Shown: piece by piece, positions 26,077 through 38,617 of the stretch | Layout: the number at the start of each line of letters is the position of its first letter | Numbering within the stretch: position 1 is the first letter of the stretch | Assembly (NCBI RefSeq): GCF_004342905.1 | Contig: NZ_SMAN01000012.1 | Coordinates: 1-64,000 of the forward strand | DNA from: Melghiribacillus thermohalophilus | GTDB taxonomy: Bacteria > Bacillota > Bacilli > Bacillales > Alkalibacillaceae | Length of the DNA stretch: 64,000 nt | Reading direction: 5' to 3' | Translations under genes and position numbers: made by a program | The notes under the pieces: generated by a model | Told to the model about the DNA's origin: nothing | The model's database searches: none | The model's input: the letters and a program-made list of their open reading frames with translations, nothing else

Positions 26077-26337
26077 AAAAAACCGTGCGAAACAGCACGG
26101 TACCATGACGTAAACTAGTTTTTTAAGATCCATGGAATTTACCGCTGTTCTTAACCATGGCTTTGTCCAAAAACCGGTCCCTTTCTAAAGCCCTTCACCT
26201 GTTTTGGGCATAGCAAGTCCTTGTCCTTGCTGCACAATTTTTTTACAGGGACATATCAGGAGTAACAAAGCCTTATTCAATTCGTTTAGTTAGTTAAGAA
26301 CAACGACTTTCAAACAAATTTCCTCCTAACATCGATT
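26077..26337 (-). ncRNA. Candidate structured non-coding RNA
   Basis: The interval between feo and the methyltransferase has its own promoter and its own terminator (ACCGTGC/GCACGGT plus six T, 26101-26077). Three perfect nested stems close a long rod: 26301-26293 with 26155-26147 (GTTCTTAAC), 26272-26265 with 26166-26159 (GGCTTTGT), and 26252-26247 with 26182-26177 (GTCCCT). Two small hairpins (GCAAG..CTTGC, GCCC..GGGC) sit at the top. No ORF with a good start fills it, though an AGGAGG followed by a seven-codon TTG frame occurs near the 5' end. I recognise no known RNA family; 6S-like or a regulatory sRNA is possible. Confidence 0.6.
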
Positions 26338-26343
26338 ACCTAT

Positions 26344-26372
26344 ATATAATCAAGTAATGAACAGGATGTCAA
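26344..26372 (-). promoter_or_regulatory. Sigma-A promoter of the candidate ncRNA
   Basis: Minus-strand TTGACA (26372-26367) and TTATAT (26349-26344) are separated by exactly 17 bp, placing a start near 26337. The -35 box overlaps the stop region of the Cys-rich Feo partner gene. Confidence 0.7.
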
Positions 26373-29410: not shown

Positions 29411-29450
29411 AAAAAGTCGACATCCCTTTTTGAGGAGATGTCGACTTTTT
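29411..29450. terminator. Bidirectional terminator
   Basis: AAAAAGTCGACATC and GATGTCGACTTTTT form a perfect 14-bp stem. It separates the small + strand gene from the converging HIT-family gene, whose stop touches it. Confidence 0.9.
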
Positions 29451-29941
29451 TATGGTGCTGCCTGTAATTCTTTTTGCAGCAGCTGAATGGCTTTTCTGAC
29501 GCCCTGAACATGTTGTTCACCATTCATATGTTTTCTGGCATGAAGCAGAACCGGACGGACTGACTCAACTGAGCGGCCAAATTCATACATCCACTCATAA
29601 CGGGGAACCATCCAGGTGTGAAAATGGTGGGTGGTATCTTCGTTGTAGAAGTAATATACATTCTCGATTCCCAATACGTTGCGCTGAGCTTCCCGGATCC
29701 TGCGAAGAATCCGGATATAGTCTGCCGCTTCTTCATCCGTCAGCTGATCAAAGGTTTTCACATGCCGTCTAGAGGCTAGTATGACTAGCCCTTTTATGGG
29801 GTAAGCCACATCCTGATGGGCATGAAAATGGGCTGACTCCACTATGGTCCCTCCATCAGGCTCCACAATCCCGTTCACAATGGCACAGCTTAAACACTCG
29901 ACCTCCACTACCCTGCCATTGGACAATTTCATTTTTCGCAT
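29450..29941 (-). CDS. HIT-like hydrolase
   Basis: A 163-residue HIT-superfamily protein. The histidine triad reads TTHHFHTWMVPR near residue 105, close to the HxHxHxx rule with Trp in place of the third His position, as in some bacterial diadenosine-polyphosphate hydrolase-like proteins. KGLVILASRRHVKTFDQLTDEE matches the family core. An alternative GTG start at 29953 overlaps arsC; the ATG at 29941 after GAGGG is preferred. It follows arsC, though its link to arsenic is unclear. Confidence 0.8.
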   Translation of the reverse strand: MRKMKLSNGRVVEVECLSCAIVNGIVEPDGGTIVESAHFHAHQDVAYPIKGLVILASRRHVKTFDQLTDEEAADYIRILRRIREAQRNVLGIENVYYFYNEDTTHHFHTWMVPRYEWMYEFGRSVESVRPVLLHARKHMNGEQHVQGVRKAIQLLQKELQAAP

Positions 29942-29949
29942 TCGAACCC

Positions 29950-30378
29950 TCACATTTCAAGTTCATTTTTTAAAAACATCTCAATGCGGTCCTTGATTTG
30001 ATCACGTACTTCTGCAAATTTTGTCATGATCTCTTCTTCAGTACCCGTAGCTTTTGCTGGGTCTTCAAATCCCCAGTGTATCCGGTTTACATGTGGCGGT
30101 GTTGCCGGGCACCTGTCATTAGCGTCCCCACACAGGGTAATGACATAATCTGCTCGATTTAACAGATCGAGGTCAATGAGCTCAGATTGATGTCCGCTGA
30201 TGTCCACCCCGGCCTGTTTCATCGCCTCCACAGCACGGGGGTTGAGTCCATGGGTTTCCACCCCTGCACTGTAGACTTCTGCCCGATCCCCGGCCAGATG
30301 TTTCGCCCAGCCTTCCGCCATCTGGCTCCGGCAGGAATTCCCCGTACACAGAAAATAAATCATCGGTTTCTTCATCAT
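29950..30378 (-). CDS. arsC: Arsenate reductase (thioredoxin-coupled)
   Basis: A 142-residue low-molecular-weight phosphatase-fold arsenate reductase. The P-loop [10 protein letters not shown] holds the nucleophilic Cys at residue 11 and the following Cys16; the redox pair Cys lies in [11 protein letters not shown] near residues 83-90. It reduces As(V) to As(III), which Acr3 exports. AAAGGAG precedes the ATG. It is the last ars gene, separated from acr3 by 164 bp that holds repeats. Confidence 0.95.
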
Positions 30379-30399: not shown

Positions 30400-30566
30400 C
30401 AAGTGGTGCCTAGTGGTGCCTGTCTCCTGTCGAATGGTAATTACTTCTTGATAGCCCAGCTTCCTCCTGAGGGTGCCGGTCACCTGTCGAATGATCCTGT
30501 TAGCCTGAACGGGATTGAGCCCAGTCTACCTGCCAACTCTCGTTAAATGTGCCTGTCACCTGTCGG
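30400..30566. repeat. Dispersed GTGCCTGTCACCTGTCG repeats between acr3 and arsC
   Basis: Three copies of the element GTGCCTGTCACCTGTCGAAT lie at about 30412-30435 (TGCCTGTCTCCTGTCGAAT), 30474-30494 (TGCCGGTCACCTGTCGAAT) and 30548-30566 (GTGCCTGTCACCTGTCGG), the last running into the acr3 C-terminal codons. Spacing is 60-75 bp. Further copies occur in the other ars gaps. Confidence 0.8.
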
Positions 30567-31604
30567 GAAATATTTCCTGCGCAACCAGAATGCTACATTG
30601 ACCAGTGCCAGCATTACCGGCACTTCCACTAAGGGCCCAATAACAGCTGCAAAGGCTGCTCCGGAGTGAATTCCGAAGACGCCTACTGCAACCGCAATGG
30701 CCAGTTCAAAGTTGTTGCTGGCTGCGGTAAACGATAGCGTAGTGCTGACAGAGTAATCAGCCCCTGCCTTTTTCCCCATAAAAAATGAAATGAAAAACAT
30801 CACCACAAAATAAATGAGCAGTGGTATTGCTATCCGCACCACGTCAAACGGCAGTTCCACAATCATATCCGCTTTCAGCGAAAACATCACCACAATCGTA
30901 AACAATAGAGCAACCAGTGTTAACGGGCTGATTTTGGGCACAAATTTGGTTTCATACCAGTTATGGCTTTTTGTCTTCACGAAGACAAACCTGGTAATCA
31001 TACCCGCAATGAACGGAATCCCTAAATAGATAAAGACACTTTTGGCCACCTCAGCCATGGAAATATCAATAACCATACTTTCAAGTCCGAGCCATTTCGG
31101 GAACAACGTGACAAATAAATAGGTATAAACCGAATAAAAGAACACCTGGAATATGGAGTTAAACGCTACCAGTCCGGCTGCATACTCTGTACTCCCCTTC
31201 GAAAGGTCATTCCAGACAATGACCATTGCAATACAGCGGGCAAGTCCAATAATGATTAACCCAACCATATACTCCGGATAATCACGTAAAAAGATAATGG
31301 CCAGAACAAACATAAGGGTGGGACCGATCACCCAGTTTTGGAATAATGAAAGGCCAAGGATTTTAACATCCTTGAACACTTCCCCCAGCTTTTCATATTT
31401 TACTTTGGCCAGAGGTGGGTACATCATGATCATCAGCCCGATAGCAATCGGAATGGACGTTGTGCCCATTTGAAACTGGTTCAGAAAGTCCACAAATTCA
31501 GGTGCTATATTTCCGATGATAATCCCGGCTGCCATCGCCGTAAAAATCCATAACGTTAAATATCTGTCCAAAATCGATAAACGTTTTGCAATCGGTTTTG
31601 CCAA
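30543..31604 (-). CDS. acr3: Arsenite efflux transporter Acr3
   Basis: A 353-residue inner-membrane transporter of the ACR3 (bile/arsenite/riboflavin) family with ten hydrophobic helices. Typical motifs are [16 protein letters not shown] with the conserved Cys near residue 142 and [17 protein letters not shown] near residue 296. It extrudes As(III) using the proton motive force. The start is a TTG at 31604 about ten bases after GAGAGG. The extreme C terminus is encoded within one copy of the dispersed repeat. Confidence 0.95.
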
Positions 31605-33208: not shown

Positions 33209-35459
<2,251 letters not shown>

Positions 35460-35527
35460 TCAGACTTTTTTAAACATGTTATCTATCACAATCAGCCCGT
35501 CTATCATCTCTCAAAAAATAACGGAAA

Positions 35528-35562
35528 GAACAGGCATGGCGTTCTGCCGCCTGTTCTTTTTT
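35528..35562. terminator. Hairpin between hutU and hutI
   Basis: GAACAGGC and GCCTGTTC pair, with GGC..GCC inside. The longer T-run is on the + strand, so on the operon strand it may only be a partial terminator or an mRNA-processing hairpin that lowers hutIG expression. Confidence 0.6.
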
Positions 35563-35600
35563 CCTTTAAAAATTGATTACCAGCATCTATCCCCGCCTAT

Positions 35601-37259
35601 TTAATCCATCATCGGAATATGGACCCCTTTTTCCTTTGCTGTTTGGACGGCAAGATCATACCCCGCATCCACATGACGGGCCACGCCCATACCCGGATCA
35701 GAAGTGAGCACCCGCTCCAGGCGCTTTGAAGCCGCTTCGGTACCATCAGCTACAATGACCATGCCGGCATGAATGGAATACCCCATGCCAACACCGCCAC
35801 CATGGTGGACAGATACCCAGCTCGCCCCATTCACACCATTAATCAGGGCGTTTAAAATCGGCCAGTCGGCAATGGCGTCACTGCCGTCTTTCATTCCTTC
35901 TGTCTCCCGGTTTGGCGATGCCACTGATCCGCAATCCAGATGATCCCGGCCGATTACAATAGGAGCGGAGATTTCTCCGGATGCGACCATGTCATTGATG
36001 ATTCGTCCAAATTTCGCCCGCTCCCCATAACCGAGCCAGCAGATTCGGGAAGGAAGCCCCTGAAATGCCACTTTCTCCTTTGCCATACGAATCCACTTGC
36101 ACAGATGTTTATGATCCGCAAATTCCTTCAAGAGCACATCATCAATTTTATCAATATCTTTCGGATCCCCGGACAGGGCAGCCCAGCGGAACGGACCTTT
36201 TCCTTCACAAAATTGCGGACGAATAAAAGCAGGAACAAACCCCGGGAAGTCAAAGGCATTTTTAACACCAGCATGATAGGCTTCCTGGCGAATGTTATTT
36301 CCGTAATCGAAAACGACCGCTCCTGCCTTTTGTAAATCCAGCATGGCCTGTACATGTTTGGCGATGCTTTCCCTGGCTATCTTGAGGTATTCGTCCGGGT
36401 CAGACTGGCGCAGCTTTTCTCCTTCTTCCAGAGACATTCCTTCCGGCAGATACCCGTTTAATGGATCATGGGCAGACGTCTGGTCGGTCACGAGATCCGG
36501 CACCTCGCCCCTCCTGACGAGCTCAGGCAAAATTTCCGCTGCATTCCCGAGCAAGCCAATGGAAAGAGGTTTCCTCTCTGACTTTGCCTCTTTCGCCATT
36601 TCCAGGGCTTGATCCAGGGAATCGGTCATCACATCTAGATATTTGGTCTCGATCCGGCGGCGAATGCGGTGTTCATCACACTCTACCGCAATCACCACCC
36701 CTTCATTCATGGTTACGGCAAGGGGCTGGGCCCCTCCCATGCCTCCAAGACCTGCCGTAACCGTCAGGGTCCCTTTTAACGTACCATTAAAGTGCTGGCG
36801 GGCAGCTTCTGCAAACGTTTCATAGGTTCCCTGAAGAATCCCCTGGGTACCAATATAAATCCAGCTCCCGGCAGTCATCTGGCCAAACATAATCAGACCC
36901 TTTTTCTCCAGTTCACGGAACGTCTCCCAGTTGGCCCAGGCCGGAACGAGATTGGAATTGGCCAGGAGTACCCTTGGGGCATCCTCATGAGATTGAAACA
37001 CAGCAACCGGCTTTCCTGACTGCACAATCAATGTTTCGTCATTTTCAAGTTCCTTTAACGTCTCCACAATTTTGTGATAGCTTTCCCAGTTTCGGGCCGC
37101 TTTCCCGATTCCGCCGTAAACCACAAGCTCCTCCGGTTTTTCAGCCACTTCCGGATCGAGGTTGTTCATCAGCATTCTAAGAGCTGCTTCCTGAATCCAC
37201 CCCTTCGTATTCAGTTTGGTTCCACGCGGCGCACGAATCGGTTTGTGTATACTCGTCAT
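35601..37259 (-). CDS. hutU: Urocanate hydratase
   Basis: A 552-residue NAD-containing urocanase, exactly the usual length. The NAD site [17 protein letters not shown] lies near residue 175, and [12 protein letters not shown] and [19 protein letters not shown] near residues 320 and 450 are family signatures with the active-site Cys. The ATG at 37259 has GGGGGG upstream; the frame extends to 37397 without support. It follows yjiH by 23 bp. Confidence 0.97.
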
Positions 37260-37282
37260 CACTAAATCCCCCCGAAAATTTT

Positions 37283-38617
37283 TCAAAGTATCATAAATGC
37301 AATTGGAGTTGCAATTAACAGCGTCAAAATCGTCCGTTCTATCCATATGACGAATAGTTTCGGAATGCTTACCGGAATGTCTGTCGAAAGAATGCATGGA
37401 ATAGATGCTGAGAAGAAGAGTACTGATGAGATCGATACGACACCTGTTACAAACTTCGTAACCAGTGGGGCTTCTGCAACGAGAAGAGCCGGCAAAAACA
37501 TTTCGGCAATTTCAACAGCAGCAGCTTTGGCAGCCAGCATTGGCTCCGGGATTTGCAGAAGCAGTGTAAATGGATAAAACAAGTAACCGATAATGTCAAA
37601 GGTTGGAGTATACGTTGCAAGAAGCAGGCCGATGAGCCCAACAGACATGATGGAAGGCAATATGCTCATGGTCATCACAAATCCATCACGCAAGTTTTCC
37701 CAGATATTTTGCCCTAAAGAAGGAGAATTGCCTGCAGCTTTTATCCCTTCGTTCCAGGCACTTTTAATCATATTTCCTTCTGGCTCAGGTTCCTTAACAG
37801 GCTGATGAAAATAATCTTCCCTTTCCTTACTCAGGGGCCAGATCCGAACAGTTATGGCTGTCACAATAAACGTAACCAGCAACGTGGTCCAGAAAAAAGC
37901 ATTCCATATCTCCATAAACCCTAATGTTTTCGCAACGACGATCATAAAAGTTGCCGATACCGTAGAAAAGCCCGTGGCAATGATCATCGCTTCTTTGACC
38001 GAATATTTCCCTTCTTTATACACCCTGTTCGTAATTAACAGTCCAATGGAATAACTGCCAGCAAAAGATGCCACAGCATCAATGGCCGATCTCCCGGGTG
38101 TCTTCCAGATCGGCCGCATGACTGGTTTCAGCAGAATGCCAACCAGTTCAAGCAGTCCATAGCCGACGATGAAGGCAAGAAATACCGACCCTATCGGAAC
38201 AAGAATGCCTACAGGTATCACCAGTTTATCAAACAAAAACGGTCCTATATCCGGAGCCAGCAGCCACTCTGGTCCGGCCTCAAAATAAATCAGCATGGCA
38301 GCAAATACGCCTAAAACCTTTAAAAACGAAAACACCATTTCCACTTTATTTTTATTCCAGGTCTTTGTTACAAAAGGGTAAAGCGCACCGAGTACAATCA
38401 CAATAAGTGCATAAATGGGTACCAGTGAAGGAAATGTGCTTCGAACCCAGCTGACCACATGGTCCAGTGGAATAGACGACGTGCCTCCGACGGAAATGGG
38501 AATAAAAAACATAAAAATCCCAATAGCACTAAATACAACTAACTTCAAAATGGATTCGGCCAGATTTTTTTCCGGCGGCAAATTCGATTCCAAACCTGTC
38601 GTTTTCGTTTGCGCCAT
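37283..38617 (-). CDS. YjiH family nucleoside-recognition (Gate) membrane protein
   Basis: A 444-residue integral membrane protein with about ten helices and two Gate-like regions, of the YjiH family. Its place inside the hut operon, and the absence of a HutM-type permease, suggest it moves histidine, urocanate or a product across the membrane; that is inference. [13 protein letters not shown] near residue 285 is a cytoplasmic loop. It lies between the AraC-type regulator and hutU. Confidence 0.85.

Follow-up and report, generated by a model that had tools for sequence, protein, structure and literature searches.

The 64,000-nt stretch of Melghiribacillus thermohalophilus DNA analysed in this study (contig NZ_SMAN01000012.1, positions 1 to 64,000; referred to below as the window) carries on its minus strand an RNA element which is, very probably, a ribosome-mediated transcription attenuator, i.e. 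a leader-peptide switch of the gene located downstream. On the evidence of its sequence, the element belongs to a new RNA family, absent from Rfam, whose proposed mechanism is of a known kind. The earlier note on this DNA had described a free ncRNA of about 260 nt. The structured RNA is real; its best reading, however, is that of a cis-acting leader, because it contains a conserved leader ORF followed by two terminators and then a gene, and because its relatives are placed likewise before genes encoding a MutS2 paralog (MutS2L). The unit had also been mis-bounded: it runs from position 26372 to 25246, through the second terminator into a methyltransferase gene.

The element lies on the minus strand, immediately after feoA, feoB and a small ORF associated with FeoB (PF12669). 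The promoter, read directly from the sequence, consists of TTGACA (26372-26367), which overlaps the end of the FeoB-associated ORF (26369), a 17-nt spacer and TTATAT (26349-26344). This TTGACA-17-TTATAT arrangement, as originally noted, is present with a perfect -35 box and is kept in the sister genome G001, but its -10 box is weak, matching the consensus at 3/6 positions (an alternative TATATA at a distance of 18 nt matches at 4/6), and a promoter scan listed nothing at 26372-26344. Further downstream, a Shine-Dalgarno (SD) sequence, AGGAGG (26327-26322), precedes a leader ORF of seven codons, TTG AAA GTC GTT GTT CTT AAC TAA (26313-26290), encoding the peptide MKVVVLN; the stop codon is TAA in the window and TGA in G001. 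Since this frame is kept across the family, the former statement that the unit lacks a convincing ORF does not hold.

Folding and alignment place the 5′ arm of the closing helix P1, CGUUGUUCUUAAC (26305-26293), over the leader codons. By folding, its 3′ arm is GUUAAGAACAGCG (26155-26143), which is also the predicted antiterminator strand. The three perfect stems reported earlier are exact: (i) the 9-bp stem GUUCUUAAC (26301-26293) with GUUAAGAAC (26155-26147), (ii) the 8-bp stem GGCUUUGU (26272-26265) with ACAAAGCC (26166-26159) and (iii) the 6-bp stem GUCCCU (26252-26247) with AGGGAC (26182-26177), the latter two being located inside P1 and equivalent to helix P3 of the family. Besides the helices, two motifs are conserved in the family alignment and recognisably kept in the window: GAAUUGAAUA (26283-26274), 3′ of the stop codon (consensus AAUU(U)nAUA), and CUUGCUAUGCC (26217-26207; consensus UUAUUUnGCUAUG). 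The terminator scan confirmed the known terminator, T1, composed of ACCGTGCTGTTTCGCACGGT and a T run (26101-26082), and revealed a second one that had been overlooked, T2, with a 15-bp stem and a T run (26045-26009). By eye, T2 of the family's elements often holds a UUGUUC stretch resembling one in the 5′ arm of the leader. The methyltransferase gene (25974-25246; class I SAM methyltransferase of the YjhP family by homology, 242 aa) has its own SD, GAGGAGG, within 25992-25972.

Folding of the window RNA finds the stems, yet its energy is only modestly unusual (z -1.78; 12 of 200 shuffles were as good), so it is the comparative evidence that carries the case. Single-sequence folding was rejected as proof, being too weak, with the opposite strand no worse (z -2.48). 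Eight relatives folded with z between -2.6 and -5.5; P1 and P3, a long inner hairpin, form in all eight, and P2, a short hairpin just 3′ of the stop codon, forms in six. The view that the RNA matches no known family was borne out by Rfam, where the window gave no match at the gathering score. The search of 14 further loci yielded purine riboswitches only, in two loci and outside the element, and none of the matches of 10 more loci at E<=1 reached the gathering score. Matches obtained at permissive thresholds were far under the gathering scores and were discarded.

Relatives were sought in several collections. Two genomes emerged from a DNA search of 60: the sister G001, at 94% identity, and G056, of another family, with a match of 39 nt. 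This match comprises the SD, the leader ORF and the P1 arm of another element, again encoding MKVVVLN. A pattern search gave matches in 12 of the 397 genomes of the order, including that of the window; 11 were taken as real and one (L015), lying in a coding region and scoring E 0.26 with model R2 (see below), as chance. In a collection of named genomes the leader pattern occurred at 51 loci, with Pontibacillus as its main carrier. Only six loci had both the SD and the 3′ arm (L019, L025, L027, L035, L037 and L051), and the remaining 45 were discarded as chance occurrences. The search of plasmids with the window element gave no match, and the same search with a Pontibacillus element gave one in Cytobacillus spongiae (L108) and two inside rhaB, which were taken as chance.

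Two covariance models were applied. The E-value of the window with model R1 (5.7e-11) proves little, since the window was in its training set. Model R2 was built from 45 MutS2L-associated elements, and the window, the sister genome and elements associated with GNAT acetyltransferase genes were kept out of it. R2 finds the window element at 26335-26133 with a score of 42.4 bits (E 1.6e-7); the runner-up within the 64 kb has E 1.3. With a threshold of E<=0.01 it also recovers 12 of 18 MutS2L loci outside the training set and misses six (L202, L203, L215, L217, L221 and L222); one of its matches (E 0.0091) is on the strand opposite to the L216 element. At the same threshold R2 gave no match in 15 loci of canonical mutS2, 14 of which are informative (L230 has no upstream sequence). 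R1, at E<=0.01, had a match in 136 of the 397 genomes, representing 44 of the 136 genera of the order; for many of these genomes only the match itself was examined, and at least two (G102 and G232) are chance matches in coding sequence. Twenty R1 matches were examined further: 15 are located before MutS2L (identified by eye, and with interrupted frames in three cases), three before other genes, and two are due to chance. Loci L189 and L190 were discarded as chance matches in coding sequence. At L181, L182 and L191 (genomes G123, G136 and G030) the mutS2L frame is interrupted, through decay or sequencing error, though the element is kept.

The gene located downstream of the element in Pontibacillus encodes a 640-aa MutS2 paralog, which we designated MutS2L. 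Of 249 genomes of the order, 74 encode MutS2L according to a protein search (E<=1e-150), the open frames measuring 639-734 aa. The element is present upstream of all 74 genes: in 70 cases by reading of the upstream region and in four (G075, G103, G110 and G208) by coordinates only, as a model match directly upstream. An exact rule located the element in all 30 regions L077-L106. Among 40 more regions, it was found in 39 when a few mismatches were allowed (L110 and L119 fail the exact rule and pass this one) and in a divergent form in the remaining one, L143, which has the peptide MLIVLSFIQ, altered pairing arms and an R2 E-value of 0.0034. As a control, none of 14 canonical mutS2 genes with upstream sequence is preceded by the element. 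The iron link raised by the feo neighbourhood is not supported: among 11 loci with neighbours listed, feo genes lie upstream only in the sisters G000 and G001, of the window's genus, and at the eight Pontibacillus loci the neighbours are instead NupC-like, YdcF-like or histidine-kinase-like (names by eye).

MutS2L retains the MutS_V ATPase domain and aligns to residues 1-553 of B. subtilis MutS2, and the Walker A motif is kept in both of the MutS2L proteins inspected. The Smr domain (PF01713) was detected in none of four MutS2L proteins tested and in all three canonical MutS2 proteins. PF20297 (KOW/MSSS) was found in one of the four at 12.2 bits, i.e. below the cut-off, although the C-terminal region appears KOW-like by eye. 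In a 45-tip tree, MutS2L forms a clade separate from canonical MutS2 (support 1.0).

The association extends across the phylum. MutS2L genes of Paenibacillus plasmids have the leaders MSVNVLN and MTTGVLN, and that of the clostridium Acetoanaerobium noterae has MSVIVLL. Further genes were found in a search of 299 phylum-wide genomes, in which MutS2L and canonical MutS2 were told apart by frame length. The leaders read in these genes comprise MSV, MSVASI, MLEVVLN, MSVSELTN, MSDLVL, MSASVQI and MSESVIN/MSESVTN, as well as MLVTVLN/MLVSVLN, MLNVSVMVIFN, MSEVVHYRL and MSVRSVMLALN. Each leader examined sits behind an SD-like sequence; those without V-L-N were picked by eye. At one further locus (L180, 566-733, genome G027) an element with the leader MSVFVLN is followed by no MutS2L gene in 4.2 kb, and this may be a site of mutS2L loss. 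A two-component system and an ABC exporter lie approximately 800 nt behind this element; the efflux operon was dismissed as its target, since with the first gene this far on the link is weak.

For the comparison of leaders and structures we used 71 elements, i.e. 70 located by script plus that of the window; L110, L119 and L143 were left out, the first two not being located by the exact rule and the third being divergent. The 71 elements have 30 distinct leader ORFs, each of exactly seven codons, with ATG (25), TTG (3) or GTG (2) as the start and TAA (29) or TGA (1) as the stop. A script rule recognised an SD before 29 of the 30. Codons 5-7 are GTT CTT AAC in 29 leaders, with ATT occurring once, a constancy that is partly built in because the elements were located by this motif. 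Codons 2-4 are variable and include synonymous changes (GTC/GTT/GTG/GTA, GGT/GGA/GGG).

All 57 aligned elements form P1, with a single G-U pair and a single mismatch at its outer pair; the invariance of P1 is likewise due in part to the picking of elements by the P1 motif. The earlier note had proposed covariance analysis across relatives. RNAalifold on alignment A2 recovered P1 alone and no covariation; compensatory changes in P1 occur at three loci. In L179, GUUCUUAAU pairs with AUUAAGAAC (AAC to AAT and GUUA to AUUA; synonymous for Asn); in L181, GUUUUUAAC pairs with GUUAAAAAC (C to U and G to A; Leu to Phe); and in L204, GUUCUCAAC stands opposite UUGAGAAC (CUU to CUC and AAG to GAG; synonymous for Leu). 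L179 and L181 are among the loci located by a looser rule. Single wobble changes in P1 were found in L186, L192, L195 and L198.

The sequences of helix P3a are unrelated between elements, yet the helix pairs in every one. The native P3a duplexes have an energy of -14.42 kcal/mol vs. -6.90 kcal/mol for swapped partners, and none of 2000 permutations was as good (n=61). These 61 elements remained of 70 after a crude redundancy filter; near-duplicates such as L116/L117 persist among them, and the sister of the window (L002) is included. The ORF also pairs better with the stretch located 45-165 nt downstream in its own locus (-18.63 kcal/mol) than in swapped ones (-14.22 kcal/mol), with none of 5000 permutations as good (n=16). 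The latter loci are the 18 outside the training set less the near-duplicates L210 and L222; four of them have a canonical P1. The partner-swap tests make no correction for relatedness.

Under a loose rule, at least one terminator is present behind P1 in each of the 71 elements, and two or more in 61. A strict rule assigned T1 to 55 elements and T2 to all 71; the T1 tests draw on these 55 and leave out the other 16. After redundancy filtering (55 to 41 elements for T1 and 71 to 48 for T2), the region of the 3′ arm was found to pair more strongly with its own T1 than with swapped ones (-10.63 vs. -9.26; n=41) and, similarly, with its own T2 (-14.35 vs. -11.56; n=48), with none of 5000 permutations as good in either test. 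When a ribosome was modelled on the end of the leader, the mean number of pairs between the 3′ arm and T1 increased from 2.20 to 7.46 (55 elements); the number rose by at least two in 39 of the 55 and fell by at least two in none.

When the window RNA is cut where T1 ends, P1 and T1 fold if the leader is free, and blocking of the leader yields a minimum-energy fold in which the antiterminator replaces T1. Once the RNA is extended through T2, T1 re-forms in the blocked minimum-energy fold, and the model thus needs a polymerase that has already passed. Blocking of the leader changes T2 by two pairs in none of the 71 elements; T2 still folds, and the simple model consequently gives no full read-through. 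With the window RNA cut at mid-T1, there are 7.8 antiterminator pairs in the free and 11.5 in the blocked state, and the P1 probability is 0.38, vs. a mean of 0.96 for the 55 elements with a strict T1. As the antiterminator is largely formed without a ribosome and the probability of P1 is low, the predicted switch of the window is less sharp than that of its relatives. Control at T1 is nonetheless supported by these computations, less sharply for the window than for the relatives.

We propose the following mechanism. RNA polymerase would start near position 26340, as judged from the promoter, and make the leader. When the seven-codon ORF is translated freely, ribosomes would leave, P1 would re-form and its 3′ arm GUUAAGAACAGCG would be tied up, so that T1 could fold and the gene would be off. 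A ribosome stalled on the leader, most likely by a ribosome-targeting antibiotic or another block of translation, would cover the 5′ arm; the freed 3′ arm could then pair with the incoming 5′ half of T1, and transcription would continue towards the methyltransferase gene. The window shares three features with attenuators of the rli80-hflXr type: an SD and a short 5′ ORF, an overlap of this ORF with the strand competing with the antiterminator, and an intrinsic terminator. Further points against the model are that the link to the methyltransferase is present in two sister genomes only and that the conserved unpaired motifs are more than a simple attenuator needs.

These motifs, AAUU(U)nAUA and UUAUUUnGCUAUG, conserved besides the helices, would be expected of a riboswitch-like sensor whose junction binds a ligand (possibly a drug), the ORF being secondary. 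We give this reading very little credence, since an ORF with an SD is found in the MutS2L leaders examined, very divergent loci included (with one exception to the SD rule), and since the position of P1 inside the ORF points to the ribosome as the sensor; the two kinds of sensing are, moreover, compatible and not exclusive. The ORF itself could be taken to sense a shortage of branched-chain amino acids, as in ilv/leu leaders, given the three Val codons and one Leu codon of MKVVVLN. Such an amino-acid attenuator is very unlikely: among the 30 leaders the constant part is just one Val(Ile)-Leu-Asn, those found elsewhere include MSV, MSVASI, MSVSELTN, MSASVQI and MSEVVHYRL, and none of the downstream genes examined is biosynthetic.

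The promoter-like sequence of its own and the strong terminators would also suit a stand-alone small RNA, which ends at T1 and acts in trans, with the methyltransferase gene as a separate unit. A short RNA as such does not discriminate, as it is predicted by both views: the off state of an attenuator makes one. The conserved seven-codon ORF inside P1, the constant placement before MutS2L in many genera and the predicted antiterminator make a stand-alone RNA very unlikely, and they favour the ribosome-mediated attenuator.

As to the signal sensed by this attenuator, the peptide of the window has neither an RLR motif nor an Ala, Ser or Thr codon. The C-terminal V-L-N-stop is near-constant in Bacillales, and stalling could therefore occur when translation terminates, which is reported for MsrDL and, with erythromycin, suspected for ToiL (PMC12121999). 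Stalling close to the start codon, or anywhere, is compatible with the very short or different leaders found elsewhere (MSV, MSVASI) and with the recurrent MS start. A general sensor of stalled ribosomes is more likely than a sensor of one specific drug, and the genes behind the switch probably counter ribosome stress or antibiotics, which for MutS2L and the methyltransferase would mean protection from ribosome stalling or its repair.

A close parallel is the rli80-hflXr attenuator of Listeria, which responds to lincomycin and erythromycin; HflXr, a homolog of a ribosome-splitting factor existing beside HflX, is controlled by this leader-peptide attenuator and confers resistance (PMC6310831). 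Both systems have a short ORF in the anti-antiterminator and alternative terminator and antiterminator structures (predicted in our case), and both control a homolog of a ribosome-splitting factor (MutS2L, in relatives of the window). They differ in that rli80-hflXr has an ORF of 14 codons with an RLR motif and an HflX homolog, a protein unrelated to MutS2L, whereas the present element has seven codons ending in V-L-N, no RLR, two terminators, and a MutS2 paralog or a methyltransferase gene. RLR, described as a signature of macrolide leaders in the same source, is absent from the 30 distinct leaders and from the 18 leaders outside the training set.

In E. coli, topAI-yjhQ-yjhP is induced by ribosome-targeting drugs through the uORF toiL (PMC12121999). 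The likeness lies in the short ORF (8 codons), in pairing that is disrupted by antibiotic-stalled ribosomes, and in the operon, which holds the E. coli relative of the window methyltransferase. By comparison, toiL differs in acting on topAI translation and then on Rho, whereas the window has intrinsic terminators. The toiL leader ORF encodes a peptide other than MKVVVLN; as the leader peptides differ, the YjhP gene family seems to have been brought twice under ribosome-sensing control, and convergence on the same gene family is likely. If this is right, there is a second, unrelated leader-peptide control before a YjhP-family methyltransferase. Ribosome-mediated control of Gram-positive resistance genes is also a feature of vmlR, cplR and vga(A) (PMC12121999) and of bmrCD; the genes controlled there are others, encoding ABC-F factors and an ABC exporter, respectively.

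B. subtilis MutS2 uses its ATPase to split collided ribosomes, and its loss makes cells hypersensitive to chloramphenicol, tetracycline and erythromycin; KOW or Smr mutants show only slight erythromycin sensitivity, and deletion of Smr strongly reduces ribosome binding (PMC10897456). MutS2L shares the ATPase region with this protein, with Smr occurring only in the canonical proteins tested. The effect of the Smr deletion on binding speaks against the Smr-less paralog acting in just the same way. The leader-peptide control of MutS2L, similar to that of HflXr beside HflX, is a strong hint that it acts on stalled ribosomes, and the comparison suggests that MutS2L probably serves as an inducible factor of ribosome rescue or resistance. 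Among the top-ranked papers of the open-access literature searched, none described an MutS2 family without Smr or placed a leader peptide or attenuator ahead of mutS2; PMC8632094 has no occurrence of mutS. If our reading is right, the element represents a widespread regulatory RNA family missing from Rfam, and it suggests a testable function for a large orphan family, the Smr-less MutS2 paralog.

The window methyltransferase matches the YjhP structure PDB 1nkv (E 4.5e-34 over residues 6-237 of 242) and shares 29% identity with E. coli YjhP. A methyltransferase gene is located downstream of the element in two of 249 genomes, both of them sisters. In the window genome the element occurs once; the genome encodes a canonical MutS2 (frame of 795 aa) and a second, more distant MutS-type protein (895 aa), but no MutS2L. 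In the window's genus the methyltransferase gene stands where most of the relatives examined have MutS2L. In PMC12096079, a yjhP knock-out was tested for mRNA m6A.

A GNAT acetyltransferase gene stands behind an element copy in two genomes of one genus (G193 and G218). In the latter (L187, 4047-4208, minus strand) a one-base insertion changes the leader to MKVVVL, with the pairing arms intact and the GNAT gene behind. Assignment of the G193 protein as a YjhQ ortholog was rejected as not specific (79.7 bits for YjhQ vs. 77.8 for YhbS). It is about an even bet that the element is a Bacillota-wide switch, an ancient leader-peptide RNA, containing a structured junction, which senses stalls caused by several drug classes, induces MutS2L, a so far undescribed family of resistance factors that split ribosomes, and was re-used for the YjhP methyltransferase and GNAT. 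If so, YjhP-type enzymes would belong to the response to ribosome poisons in E. coli and in this bacterium by independent routes.

In genome G092 a second element copy (L188, 3740-3870, minus strand) precedes an alpha/beta hydrolase gene; although this copy retains the RNA (R2 E 2e-8), its leader frame is disrupted (MRSYS). We do not claim the hydrolase as the macrolide esterase EstT, as it scores 32 bits against a cut-off of 450.

Elsewhere on the minus strand of the window, an arsenate-reductase-like ORF (29950-30378) and an Acr3-like arsenite transporter ORF (30543-31604) adjoin a HIT-like ORF (29450-29953). A histidine-utilisation-like cluster (33209-38617, minus strand) contains formimidoylglutamase-, imidazolonepropionase- and urocanase-like ORFs, followed by a membrane protein; all of these names were assigned by eye.
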